This document shows, one piece after another, positions 1 to 64,000 of a DNA stretch of 64,000 nucleotides (positions within the stretch are counted from its first letter, which is position 1; every line of letters begins with the position of its first letter). The notes beneath the pieces are model-generated. The model made no database searches and had not been told where the DNA came from. It saw nothing but the letters and a program-made list of their open reading frames with translations. The translations under genes were made by a program, and so were the position numbers. This DNA is from Hyphomicrobiales bacterium 4NK60-0047b (GTDB lineage: Bacteria; Pseudomonadota; Alphaproteobacteria; Rhizobiales; HXMU1428-3): the NCBI GenBank assembly GCA_040367435.1, contig BAABWY010000001.1, forward strand, positions 992,001 through 1,056,000, given 5' to 3'.

Positions 1-168
1 AAATAAGCAAAGCGGCCTCATTAAATTTGTTATAGTATAATTTCAACACAACACGAAGTTCAACATCAAAAAAACTGACGCAACAAAAACGATACAACGT
101 TAAAAATAAACACACAAATTCAAACTACTACCCTGATTTACCAGCCCCCTATCACAGAAAAATGACAA

Positions 169-198
169 GCGCAGTTGCTAGTGCGCAACCTAAAGCGC
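169..198 (+). repeat. R1 hairpin repeat, copy 1
   Basis: Outer arms GCGC (169-172 and 195-198) enclose inner arms GTTGC (174-178) and GCAAC (185-189) around loop TAGTGC. The 3' inner arm is followed by CTAAAG, close to the CTGAAG found in most other copies. It matches the R1 pattern seen at 2824, 40467, 40557, 40614, 42979, 43019, 50756 and 63295. Confidence 0.6.
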
Positions 199-332
199 AA
201 ACAAGAAAGCACATCAGAATAATAAGCAAAGCATGTCTCATCCCCACAACAAAGTAAAGATGAGATTTCAGCGTGCTCCCGCATAAGTGGATACCAGTTA
301 TACGAAAAACATCTCGCTAAAATAAAAACTTA

Positions 333-2818: not shown

Positions 2819-2823
2819 AGGAT

Positions 2824-2856
2824 AGCTCGGTTGCTGGTGGGCAACTGAAGCGCAAC
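2824..2856 (+). repeat. R1 hairpin repeat, copy 2
   Basis: Inner arms GTTGC (2830-2834) and GCAAC (2841-2845) flank the consensus loop TGGTGG. CTGAAGCGC follows the 3' arm. It closely matches copy 3 at 40467-40500. Confidence 0.65.
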
Positions 2857-2949
2857 TAAAAATGACATGCTCTAGTGGTACACATAAACGTGATAACGGT
2901 CACCTAACCAATTCGTGACAAACATGTGATCAAGCCTAATGCAAAACAC

Positions 2950-40313: not shown

Positions 40314-40466
40314 TTTATTTCTGCCTATTCTTATCTCTTGCACTTTTCATCATAACGGATTTTAGTGTCTAATAAGAGTAACAAATTATCACGTTCTGCT
40401 CAAAATAGGTTCACTGAAAACCCAAGGAACGCGGATATCACGACGGTTGCTTATTGAGGATGCTTT

Positions 40467-40500
40467 ATGCCGGTTGCTGGTGGGCAACCTGAAGCCGCAT
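40467..40500 (+). repeat. R1 hairpin repeat, copy 3
   Basis: Outer arms ATGC (40467-40470) and GCAT (40497-40500), inner arms GGTTGC (40472-40477) and GCAACC (40484-40489), loop TGGTGG, followed by TGAAG. It lies inside a longer pair formed by GGTTGCT near 40445 and AGCAAACC near 40508. Confidence 0.7.
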
Positions 40501-40556
40501 TTAAAAAGCAAACCTGACTGAGCACGAATGTGACGGTTGCTATTTGCAGATGCTTT

Positions 40557-40587
40557 GGGCCGGTTTCTAGTGGGAAACCGAAGGCCC
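40557..40587 (+). repeat. R1 hairpin repeat, copy 4
   Basis: Outer arms GGGCC and GGCCC, inner arms GGTTTC (40562-40567) and GAAACC (40574-40579), loop TAGTGG, followed by GAAG. It is enclosed by GATGCT near 40549 and AGCATC near 40597, the latter followed by CGAAGCAC. Confidence 0.7.
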
Positions 40588-40613
40588 ATCAAAAATAGCA
40601 TCCGAAGCACATT

Positions 40614-40644
40614 GTGCCGGTTTCTGGTGGGAAACTGAAGGCAC
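40614..40644 (+). repeat. R1 hairpin repeat, copy 5
   Basis: Outer arms GTGCC and GGCAC, inner arms GTTTC (40620-40624) and GAAAC (40631-40635), loop TGGTGG, followed by TGAAG. With copy 4 it lies inside a pair formed by GGTTGCT near 40535 and AGCAACC near 40655. Confidence 0.7.
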
Positions 40645-40677
40645 ACTAAAAGAGAGCAACCTGAAGGAGCATAAAAA

Positions 40678-41424
40678 ATGACAGACGTAGACAAAACAAT
40701 GCGAATATTCGAAGCAAGTAGAGGACGGAAAGTTATCCTCATAACTGTTTTTACGCTTCTTATTCCCTTTTTTATCTCTCTGCCTTTCATGATTTTCTTG
40801 AGGTTGAGCAAAGGCTTCTATTATGACGCCGCCATTTTATTTCTTTTTGCCATTTTATTTGCGATTTGGATGGTGTTTCTCGGCGCTCACATTTTATCAA
40901 GCCTACGCACCCGCATCCAACTAAACGAACAAGACGCAGTCCTACTCGTCCCCAATTGGCGCGGCCCCTTGCCTCTGCTGCCATACAAAACAATCAGCCT
41001 GACTTATGAAAATGTAAAGTCCGTCGAAAGCCGTAGCGAAATCTACAGAGAAGCCATCATTCCTATACTCATGCGTTCTTGCAGCATCGTCACACAAGAT
41101 GGGGAACGGCATATTCTCGGCTATACAAAAGAAAAAGCCACAGACCCGGCCTTTCCTTTTACTGAAATCAGCCACGAAATCGCCATGCGCGCAGGCCTCC
41201 CTTTAAGTGAAAGAGGAACCGTTCACGCAGGCGGCCAATATCTGGCCGCCATCAAAGGCCCCCCTTCATGGGACAAACAACCATTGTCGCCAGCTGCTGT
41301 TCAAACGGCACGAAAAGCCGCCCAAAAATTCTGGTGGATCATGATCGCCATTTCAGCCGCAATTCTCATCACCGGCGTCGGCATCGAATTCTGGCGCATC
41401 GGCGTAGAAGGTTTTGCTCAGTAA
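40678..41424 (+). CDS. membrane protein of unknown function
   Basis: The 248-residue protein has two N-terminal membrane helices (about residues 20-42 and 50-74), a soluble middle of about 140 residues (RIQLNEQDAVLLVPNWRGPLPLLPYKTISLTYENVKSVESR...), and a C-terminal helix (FWWIMIAISAAILITGVGIEF). The middle part resembles a bacterial PH-like fold, but I do not recognise a named family. Its Shine-Dalgarno sequence, GAAGGAGC, lies in the 3' end of the nested R1 repeat, the same arrangement as at 63333. Confidence 0.65.
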   Translation: MTDVDKTMRIFEASRGRKVILITVFTLLIPFFISLPFMIFLRLSKGFYYDAAILFLFAILFAIWMVFLGAHILSSLRTRIQLNEQDAVLLVPNWRGPLPLLPYKTISLTYENVKSVESRSEIYREAIIPILMRSCSIVTQDGERHILGYTKEKATDPAFPFTEISHEIAMRAGLPLSERGTVHAGGQYLAAIKGPPSWDKQPLSPAAVQTARKAAQKFWWIMIAISAAILITGVGIEFWRIGVEGFAQ

Positions 41425-42537: not shown

Positions 42538-42978
42538 ATGGTTTCTAAAATTGAACATAAAAACAGAACCGGCTGCCCCATAGCCTGCTCACTAGATATT
42601 CTCGGCGATCACTGGACCCTATTGGTCATTCGTAATTTGATGTTTTTAGATGTGCATGAATATAAAGATATGCTGAAAACAGAAGAGCAAATTTCAAGCA
42701 GCATTTTGTCTGACCGCTTAAAGAAACTCGAATGTGAAGGCGTCATAGCCTCCATCCCCCACCCAGATAGCAAACGCAGAAAACTTTACTATCTAACACC
42801 GGTAGGCAAAGACTTAATTCATCTCATGATGGAAATTGTCTTATGGGCAAACAATCACCTAAGCGAGCGACTTGATATCCCAGCTGAGAAGAAAAAATTA
42901 CTCGAGAAAAACCCGGAAAAATTCAAAGCCCTCATCCTGGACAAAATCCAAAAATGGGAAGAAGAGCATCTTTATTAA
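42538..42978 (+). CDS. HxlR-family transcriptional regulator
   Basis: The 146-residue winged-helix regulator has the N-terminal Cys pair CPIACSLDILGDHWTLLVIRN, then EQISSSILSDRLKKLECEGVI and SKRRKLYYLTPVGKDL. ATG 42538 gives the family's normal N-terminus. The longer frame from 42400 overlaps the divergent gene. It probably controls the divergent membrane-protein/DHFR-like pair. An R1 hairpin starts right after its stop codon. Confidence 0.88.
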   Translation: MVSKIEHKNRTGCPIACSLDILGDHWTLLVIRNLMFLDVHEYKDMLKTEEQISSSILSDRLKKLECEGVIASIPHPDSKRRKLYYLTPVGKDLIHLMMEIVLWANNHLSERLDIPAEKKKLLEKNPEKFKALILDKIQKWEEEHLY

Positions 42979-43008
42979 GTGCGGATGCTTTGTGGGCATC
43001 TGAAGCAC
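42979..43008 (+). repeat. R1 hairpin repeat, copy 6
   Basis: Outer arms GTGC (42979-42982) and GCAC (43005-43008), inner arms GATGC and GCATC, followed by TGAAG. It begins at the base after the HxlR stop codon. Confidence 0.65.
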
Positions 43009-43018
43009 AATTAAAAAT

Positions 43019-43050
43019 ACGGATGCTTTGTGGGCAACCTAAAGCGCTAC
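43019..43050 (+). repeat. R1 hairpin repeat, copy 7 (mismatched)
   Basis: The 5' arm is GGATGC and the 3' arm GCAACC, leaving one mismatch. This copy seems to join a left arm of the GATGC type to a right arm of the GTTGC type, as if recombined. CTAAAGCGC follows. Confidence 0.55.
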
Positions 43051-50612: not shown

Positions 50613-50816
50613 TAAGAAGAAGGAGCTCAACCCACTTCGGTCTGAGTGACATGACAAAACCTAGCGCACAAGATCAGTCCGAACGGAGCGCAGCGAGTAC
50701 GGATAAGCTGATCGCATAAAAAGCCCCGCACCTCGTAGCCCAAGTACTTTAAGCACGGATGCTGGTCGGCATCTGAGGCGCAACTATAAGCGCTTGGAAT
50801 AGCCGTGAGAGAGTAA
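50613..50816 (+). repeat. R2 mosaic element, copy D (expanded, with nested R1)
   Basis: The head AAGAAGAAGGAGC and first hairpin (CTCAacccacttcggtcTGAG) match other copies. The middle is diverged and longer. It regains CGCACCTCGTAGCC. An R1 hairpin (GATGCtggtcgGCATC) lies inside the final hairpin region that ends AAGCGCTTGGAATAGCCGTGAGAGA. Its end touches the stop codon of the converging rnhB. Confidence 0.65.
50756..50786 (+). repeat. R1 hairpin repeat, copy 8 (inside R2 copy D)
   Basis: Inner arms GATGC (50758-50762) and GCATC (50769-50773) around TGGTCG, followed by TGAGGCGC. It lies within the last hairpin of R2 copy D. Confidence 0.6.
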
Positions 50817-51479
50817 TTAAAGCAAAGCTTTAATCGGCTTAAAGGATTGCCTGTGATGCATCGTCACTCCATGCTCAGCCAAAGCTTGCTGGTGATCTTT
50901 TGTTCCATAGCCTTTATTTGACGCCCATTTATAAGCAGGAAACTCTGCCGAAAGCGCTACCATCATCCGGTCTCTCGTCACTTTAGCGATGATAGACGCC
51001 GCCGCAATCGACAATGATCGGGCATCACCTTTCACCAAAGCCAGAGCTGGCATAGGCAACTCCGGTAACTTATTTCCATCCACCAAAACAGAACGCGGCC
51101 TAACAGAAAGGTCCGCAACAGATTGCCCCATGGCCCAAAGCGATGCCTTTAAAATATTGTCACGATCAATCTTCGCTACATCAGCAATTCCAACCCCAAT
51201 ATAAAGCCGCTCTTCTGCCGCCATCTCTGTCATCAGCTCAAACAAAGTTTCTCGTTTAGCTTCAGTTAATTTCTTAGAGTCATTCAATCCAGCCGGAATA
51301 TCATCCGGATTGAGAATGACAGCCCCCGCCACAACTGGCCCAGCCCACGGACCGCGCCCCGCCTCGTCAGTGCCAGCAACACAACCACCAAACTTTTCCA
51401 TGGCTTCTGTTTCAAACTGAAAATCCGGCCCAGTTTTCACTTCAGATGAAGAGAGTGTTTTTTGTTCTTTTTTTGTCAT
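50817..51479 (-). CDS. rnhB: ribonuclease HII
   Basis: This RNase HII of about 220 residues removes RNA from RNA-DNA hybrids and single ribonucleotides. Active-site residues are in VAGTDEAGRGPWAGPVVAGA (Asp and Glu), VLVDGNK (Asp) and the SIAAASIIAKVTRDRMM region. The C-terminus has NKGYGTKDHQQALAEHG. ATG 51479 with GGCGGG upstream is preferred. It is convergent with R2 copy D and 50 bp from the radical SAM gene upstream. Confidence 0.94.
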   Translation of the reverse strand: MTKKEQKTLSSSEVKTGPDFQFETEAMEKFGGCVAGTDEAGRGPWAGPVVAGAVILNPDDIPAGLNDSKKLTEAKRETLFELMTEMAAEERLYIGVGIADVAKIDRDNILKASLWAMGQSVADLSVRPRSVLVDGNKLPELPMPALALVKGDARSLSIAAASIIAKVTRDRMMVALSAEFPAYKWASNKGYGTKDHQQALAEHGVTMHHRQSFKPIKALL

Positions 51480-63279: not shown

Positions 63280-63294
63280 AAGGCGCAATAACAG

Positions 63295-63327
63295 CGACGG
63301 TTGTTGATAGGCAACCTGAAGGAGCAT
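63295..63327 (+). repeat. R1 hairpin repeat, copy 9 (carries ribosome-binding site)
   Basis: GGTTG (63299-63303) and CAACC (63312-63316) form the stem, followed by TGAAGGAGC. GAAGGAGC is the Shine-Dalgarno sequence of the SDR gene starting at 63333. The 3' arm and Shine-Dalgarno sequence match those before 40678. Confidence 0.65.
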
Positions 63328-63332
63328 TTAAA

Positions 63333-64000
63333 ATGTCAACAAATCCATCACTAAAAGATAAATCAATATTCATCACAGGTGGCTCAAGGGGTATCGGCCT
63401 AGCCATTGCAAAACGGGCAGCTGAAGACGGGGCCAATGTCACCATCGCCGCCAAGACAACCAAACCTCACCCCCAATTACCCGGCACTATTCACTCAGCT
63501 GCCGCAGAAATTGAAAATACTGGTGGCAAAGCACTCGCCGTCGAAATGGACATCAGGCACGAAGAGATGGTCAAAGATGCCTTAGCCAAAAGCGCTGATC
63601 ACTTTGGTGGAATTGACATTGTTATAAATAACGCCAGCGCCATTTTCTTGCAGCCAACGGAAAGTTTAGAGATGAAACGCTTTGACTTGATGCATCAAGT
63701 CAACGCCCGTGGCACCTTTATGGTCTCCAAACACGCACTCCCTTATTTGCAGAAAGCGGAAAACCCACACATCCTTATGCTCTCACCACCCTTGGATATG
63801 AGTGAAAAATGGTTCTCACCTCATGTCGGATATAGCATGGCAAAATACGGAATGAGCTTGGTTGTTTTAGGGCTAGCCGGCGAAGTTAGAAAACAAAACA
63901 TTGCTGTGAACGCCCTTTGGCCGCGCACCACCATCGCAACTGCTGCCATTGCCAACAATTTTGGTATGGATGCCATGAAACAATGCCGCAAACCAGAAAT
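63333..64000 (+). CDS. SDR-family oxidoreductase (HSDL2/citronellol dehydrogenase-like), cut by window end
   Basis: The first 222 residues are visible. It is a short-chain dehydrogenase/reductase with TGGSRGIGLAIAKRAAE (NAD(P)-binding Gly motif), VINNASAIF, and the catalytic YSMAKYGMS with Tyr and Lys. The region from WPRTTIATAAIANNFG matches HSDL2/citronellol-dehydrogenase-like members. The gene continues past 64000. Its Shine-Dalgarno sequence GAAGGAGC lies within R1 copy 9. It is probably part of the acyl-CoA catabolism unit. Confidence 0.88.
   Translation, partial: MSTNPSLKDKSIFITGGSRGIGLAIAKRAAEDGANVTIAAKTTKPHPQLPGTIHSAAAEIENTGGKALAVEMDIRHEEMVKDALAKSADHFGGIDIVINNASAIFLQPTESLEMKRFDLMHQVNARGTFMVSKHALPYLQKAENPHILMLSPPLDMSEKWFSPHVGYSMAKYGMSLVVLGLAGEVRKQNIAVNALWPRTTIATAAIANNFGMDAMKQCRKPE

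Follow-up and report, generated by a model that had tools for sequence, protein, structure and literature searches.

Hairpins of a single repeat family, R1, are nested within one another at 40530-40670 of the window (the whole stretch of 64,000 nucleotides analyzed here), where one outer hairpin encloses two hairpins lying side by side, the first of which holds a third level. With moderate confidence, we propose that R1 is an orphan REP-like family of mobile hairpins, which spread as single-stranded hairpins into hairpin tips and was then reshuffled; this proposal rests on the conservation of the core across two Rhizobiales families, the covariation of the arms, a single orientation in each replichore, copies in the loops of its own and of other repeats, and presence or absence between species. 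R1 is about 40 bp in size. Its outer arm is variable and 4-5 bp long, and its inner arm reads GGTTGC, GGTTTC or GGATGC; after the loop, T(N)GTGG, come the inner-arm complement, TGAA, the outer-arm complement and an A-rich tail. The nested block and its surroundings comprise the following features.

40442-40523 (+), composite 1: an imperfect outer hairpin (GGTTGC/GCAAACC), a GGATGC left arm without a partner (40458-40463) and one complete R1 (40462-40512).
40530-40670 (+), composite 2: an outer R1 hairpin, GTGAC-GGTTGC ... GCAACC-TGAAGGAGC, with arms at 40535-40540 (GGTTGC) and 40656-40661 (GCAACC), enclosing three further hairpins.
40548-40602 (+), second-level hairpin, AGATGC (40548-40553)/GCATC (40598-40602).
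40557-40597 (+), third-level R1, GGGCC-GGTTTC-TAGTGG-GAAACC-GAA-GGCCC plus the A-rich tail ATCAAAAATA; hairpin proper 40557-40587.
40614-40655 (+), second-level R1, GTGCC-GGTTTC-TGGTGG-GAAACT-GAA-GGCAC plus the tail ACTAAAAGAGA; hairpin proper 40614-40644.
40666-40669 (+), GGAG at the 3' foot of the outer R1, a possible ribosome-binding site 8 nt ahead of the ATG at 40678.
40678-41424 (+), a 248-codon reading frame downstream of composite 2, without a Pfam match.

The GGGCC-GGTTTC hairpin is complete and occupies the loop of the AGATGC/GCATC hairpin, and the GTGCC-GGTTTC hairpin, also complete, adjoins the latter within composite 2. When folded as single-stranded DNA, 40530-40677 gave z-scores of -4.6 (+ strand) and -4.3 (- strand), and no shuffle folded equally well. 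The initial annotation had described R1 nested in R1 over all of 40440-40677; this held for 40530-40670 and needed correction for 40442-40523, where the outer pair is imperfect and GGATGC is unpartnered. Copies of the CGAC..TGAAGGAGCA subtype (40661-40678 and 63320-63335) put GGAG a few bases ahead of an ATG, and of the 13 copies of this subtype in the window's own contig (C1), only 4 have a called gene start no more than 40 nt away.

The window holds about nine R1 copies, as had been counted initially, all on the + strand and on one plan; eight, including one weak match, were found by a covariance model, and the hybrid copy was found separately.

163-213 (+), R1 copy, missing at the equivalent place in the sister genome, DHS20C07.
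2819-2868 (+), R1 copy within a palindromic stretch; the entire 103-bp stretch is missing from DHS20C07.
40462-40512 (+), the complete R1 copy in composite 1.
40552-40601 (+), R1 copy in composite 2.
40609-40658 (+), R1 copy in composite 2.
42973-43023 (+), R1 copy of the GATGC type, also in DHS20C07.
43021-43046 (+), hybrid R1 copy with two arm types, GGATGC on the left and GCAACC on the right.
50747-50796 (+), R1 copy lying in CCCAAG..CTTGG, the terminal hairpin of a longer repeat.
63289-63339 (+), weakly matching R1 copy of the GGAG subtype, directly before an ATG.

The arms were of a single type in 66 of the 67 intact cores, and the sole hybrid was the copy at 43021, whose mismatched arms of two stem types had been recognized at the outset. 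An Rfam search of the window returned nothing except one tRNA.

A genome-wide pattern search, proposed in the initial annotation, yielded 172 matches to the 17-base pattern GGTTNCTNGTGGGNAAC in this genome and 0 for the reversed control. On C1, the R1 core occurred 68 times on the + strand and 5 times on the - strand (reversed control, 0), and the covariance model gave 135 matches in the 1.14 Mb searched of this 1.16-Mb contig, 117 of them outside reading frames of at least 100 codons; like a REP, R1 is a short, high-copy palindrome found mostly outside genes. In the genomes surveyed, it was found in two Rhizobiales families only: among 398 genomes of the order, R1 was present in 20, comprising all eight of its own genus and 12 from one other family, and among 385 genomes of the class, several from the same order, the present genome was the sole match (per-genome matches in both surveys, listed to about 15, are "at least" figures and not copy numbers). 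The core also occurs in named records, among them Methyloligella sp. DHS20C07 and the Hyphomicrobiales MAGs OFTM213, OFTM288 and HXMU1428-3. The core GGTTGCTGGTGGGCAAC-TGAAG is identical in both families despite GC contents of about 41% and 64%, and a nested case was also observed in a GC-rich genome of the other family (G201).

The substitutions in the arms were paired, as initially claimed. In a covariation test anchored on the loop and the 3' signature, with the arms unconstrained, the outer arms gave 218 Watson-Crick cells against 150 permuted and the inner arms 249 against 213, and in neither case did any of 2000 shuffles score as high. Outer-arm changes in a wider set were mostly Watson-Crick on both sides, with few G-U pairs; the near-perfect outer pairing in alignment A1 arises partly by construction, because A1 was selected for a paired outer arm.

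A strong enclosing helix was found around 24 of 122 copies, compared with 9.0 after permutation (maximum 17 in 300 permutations); this test superseded a weak first one that considered enclosing R1-type arms only (15 against 6.2, maximum 16). The best enclosed cases were CTCAGCC..GGCTGAG, CAAGCGC..GCGCTTG, TTCAGCCC..GGGCTGAA and GGTTGC..GCAACC, so that its targets include the hairpins of other repeats; some of the filled hairpins may have arisen by copying from each other and not by separate insertion. R1 often replaces the loop of the host hairpin instead of splitting it, and neither a target duplication nor a fixed insertion site was definable at its fuzzy boundaries. This genome also contains dispersed copies of a longer modular repeat, ..GAAGAAGGAG-hairpin-GGACATG..CCCCTCGGAGGCC-hairpin-GAATAGCCGTGAGAGA (for example at 50690-50840 of the window); its hairpins vary between species with complementarity kept, and R1 sits in them. 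A second palindromic repeat, ..GGTTTTGGGAA..GGAACGCTA, carries R1 at its middle (C1:228278 and C1:272280).

Comparison between species revealed R1 sites in empty, filled and lost states. DHS20C07 aligns with the present genome over 728 kb at about 89% identity, and the 63 aligned R1 clusters differed in length by at least 20 bp in 35 cases and by less than 5 bp in 23. R1 sequence was involved in 52 of 186 indels of 20-160 bp, with R1 and its flanking 15 bp making up less than 1% of the sequence; this figure counts the R1 content of inserts, meaning that R1 DNA comes and goes, and is not a rate. Empty sites in relatives, which the initial annotation had suggested looking for, were found at several loci. 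At C1:114470, DHS20C07 has an empty GGATGC-TTGTGG-GCATC hairpin, which in the present genome carries a 68-bp R1 composite; at C1:302920, the loop was replaced and the arms changed from GGTTGC/GCAAC to GGTTAC/GTAAC between the empty and the filled state, and the whole array is missing in two relatives. At C1:137867, a plain hairpin occurs in three relatives (the sister and two others) and R1 lies inside it only in the present genome, and at C1:918378, R1 is absent in OFTM213, single in DHS20C07 and HXMU1428-3, and nested in the present genome. At the last two loci, the relatives show that the present genome gained R1 in a loop, one of the targets being a different repeat. In the nested block itself, the hairpin at 40548-40602 is empty in DHS20C07 (GGATGC-TATGTGG-GCATCC) and filled in OFTM213 as in the present genome; since this third species is filled, the emptiness in DHS20C07 may have come about by loss. 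Relatives carry more than the present genome at C1:1083805, which therefore represents loss of a unit in its own lineage; in addition, a tandem gain was observed at C1:372799, and pieces were exchanged between the two composites of the nested block. The initial reading, insertion of hairpins into their own kind or recombination between them, was partly supported: insertion by the empty sites in the sister genome, with the direction set by further species at two of them, and recombination by the tandem gain, the unit loss and the exchange between composites. Tandem duplication alone was refuted.

R1 was also strongly polarized along the chromosome. On C1, 126 of the 135 copies lay on the + strand (126:9), with 86:8 among 94 clusters (p 1e-17), and the strand was uniform on the other contigs too, in the stretches sampled. 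On C1-C7, on C1 and C2 of G004 and on C30 of G256, the strand-balanced codon-3 GC and AT skews agreed in sign with what the R1 strand predicts, the agreement being weak on C6 and on C30 of G256 (two of the nine contigs beyond C1); codon-3 skew was used because the plain GC skew of the relatives' short loci was uninformative (124:109). Plain GC skew was about -0.14 on C1 and near zero on C3-C7, despite the uniform R1 strand in the sampled stretches. We take the polarity of R1 to follow the direction of replication, as indicated by the skews. Flanking genes or transcription do not explain it: 39 copies lie between two + genes and 38 between two - genes. Between divergent genes lie 8 of the 109 intergenic + copies, against 29% expected by length. 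A replication-strand bias of this kind would suit an IS200/IS605 derivative, and the copies are arranged head-to-tail on one strand per contig, not in the alternating orientation of BIMEs. The polarity, the residence in hairpins of other repeat families and the frequent replacement of loops all go beyond the initial annotation.

In the mechanism that we favor, R1 would spread at the replication fork in the form of a hairpin of single-stranded DNA. A putative sequence-specific factor would insert the copy where the lagging-strand template exposes the tip of another hairpin, whose loop is often replaced in the process; since R1 itself forms a hairpin, nesting is the consequence. Later, duplication and deletion, together with conversion among the copies, would make arrays expand and contract, and repair templated by the hairpin may maintain the complementarity of the arms. 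That the core is the same at different base composition in the two families favors a factor; copying is favored by the replacement of loops and the lack of sharp boundaries. More tentatively, R1 could represent a new kind of single-strand mobile element; its target would be hairpin tips, which would lead it to insert into itself, and its driver would be an enzyme family without a prior link to DNA movement.

The main and serious rival to hairpin-tip insertion is enzyme-free template switching, in which the nascent strand would quit a hairpin, copy R1 elsewhere and return, so that loops are swapped, arms are complementary by templating and the fork orientation is kept. We give this account substantial weight, short of calling it probable: the loops are replaced and not cut, the arm changes are paired with few G-U intermediates, no transposase is common to the R1-rich genomes tested, and there is precedent in that template switching is reported to create and maintain hairpins (PMC8794818). 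However, an identical core in families of such different GC content is more readily reconciled with a factor that recognizes it than with random copying, and unrelated hairpins have also been entered by R1.

We consider it unlikely that R1 was mobilized by a RAYT-type Y1 transposase since lost or diverged past detection, which was the type of enzyme suggested initially. R1 is REP-like in size, hairpin form and location mostly outside long reading frames, and the IS200/IS605 family uses the lagging-strand template (PMC6006769); however, Y1_Tnp, in a search whose control detected that of E. coli, was found neither in the present genome (G000) nor in five of its six R1-rich relatives in the genus (G002, G004, G005, G006 and G007), so that no Y1 acting in trans was seen in these genomes. 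The remaining relative, DHS20C07 (G003), has two Y1 genes (L253 and L254), both flanked by AATTACGGTGACAGT repeats unrelated to R1, and a cognate Y1 flanked by R1 was not found. In the other family (f2), Y1 occurred only in G391 among four genomes with at least 12 listed R1 matches. No GTAG or GTRG tag was seen at the hairpin foot, where the columns beside the stem in alignment A1 are the A-rich tail (sense ...CACTAAAAA), and the copies run head-to-tail. Reverse transcriptase, which a retron, group II intron or DGR product would involve, was absent from G000 and G003, occurring in the genus only in G004 and G006 and elsewhere in G201 and G256. IS110 was present in the genus in G000 only, outside it in G201 and G256, a distribution at odds with an IS110-mobilized element, and integron integrase, the partner of attC sites, exceeded the cut-off in 0 of 10 genomes. 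Each of the four enzyme families to which the search for a mover extended, Y1/RAYT, reverse transcriptase, IS110 and integron integrase, was missing from most R1-rich genomes tested and was rejected as the mover. When gene-carrying autonomous copies were sought as R1 arms split by 0.2-5 kb, C1 and DHS20C07 each yielded only two candidates. Finally, it is most improbable that R1 is a structured RNA element under selection in untranslated regions, with nesting as structural elaboration: some copies do precede start codons and carry GGAG (40666-40669), but orientation tracks the chromosome and not the flanking genes, outer-arm G-U pairs are few, presence differs between close species and copies between divergent genes are scarce.

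Compared with REPs and their RAYT/TnpA_REP transposases, R1 is likewise a short, high-copy, mostly intergenic palindrome with a single-strand hairpin logic, but it differs in having no GTAG tag seen and no cognate RAYT found, in its one orientation per replichore as opposed to alternating pairs, and in nesting in loops; because the RAYT association and the GTAG tag both fail, R1 was not filed as a classical REP. CGTC REPs have been reported without a dedicated transposase (Di Nocera 2013; PMC3733652), but their tag and stems are different, and loop nesting is not mentioned for them in the available text of that report. ISPsy8, IS1397, IS621 and others insert into REPs, ISPsy8 entering the hairpin at its symmetry axis (PMC1525189); they have a palindromic target in common with R1, but are whole insertion sequences with a transposase gene, whereas R1, at about 40 bp, inserts into members of its own family. 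IS608 and ISDra2, of the IS200/IS605 family, share with R1 the hairpins and the lagging-strand template on which the family acts (PMC6006769), but encode Y1, none of which was found for R1. No description matching nested bacterial hairpins was found in the literature searched. The double-hairpin elements of fungal mitochondria are small mobile hairpins without a known enzyme; they differ from R1 in sequence and genome.

What seems to be new is that R1 unites self-nesting, a replication polarity and orphan status. RAYTs account for most REP families, but not for orphan families. With R1, the species compared are close enough to reveal both the empty and the filled state of a site, the strand polarity is clear and the core is conserved in sequence; therefore, the spread of palindromic repeats without a known enzyme becomes testable, as does whether paired arm changes stem from selection or from templated synthesis.
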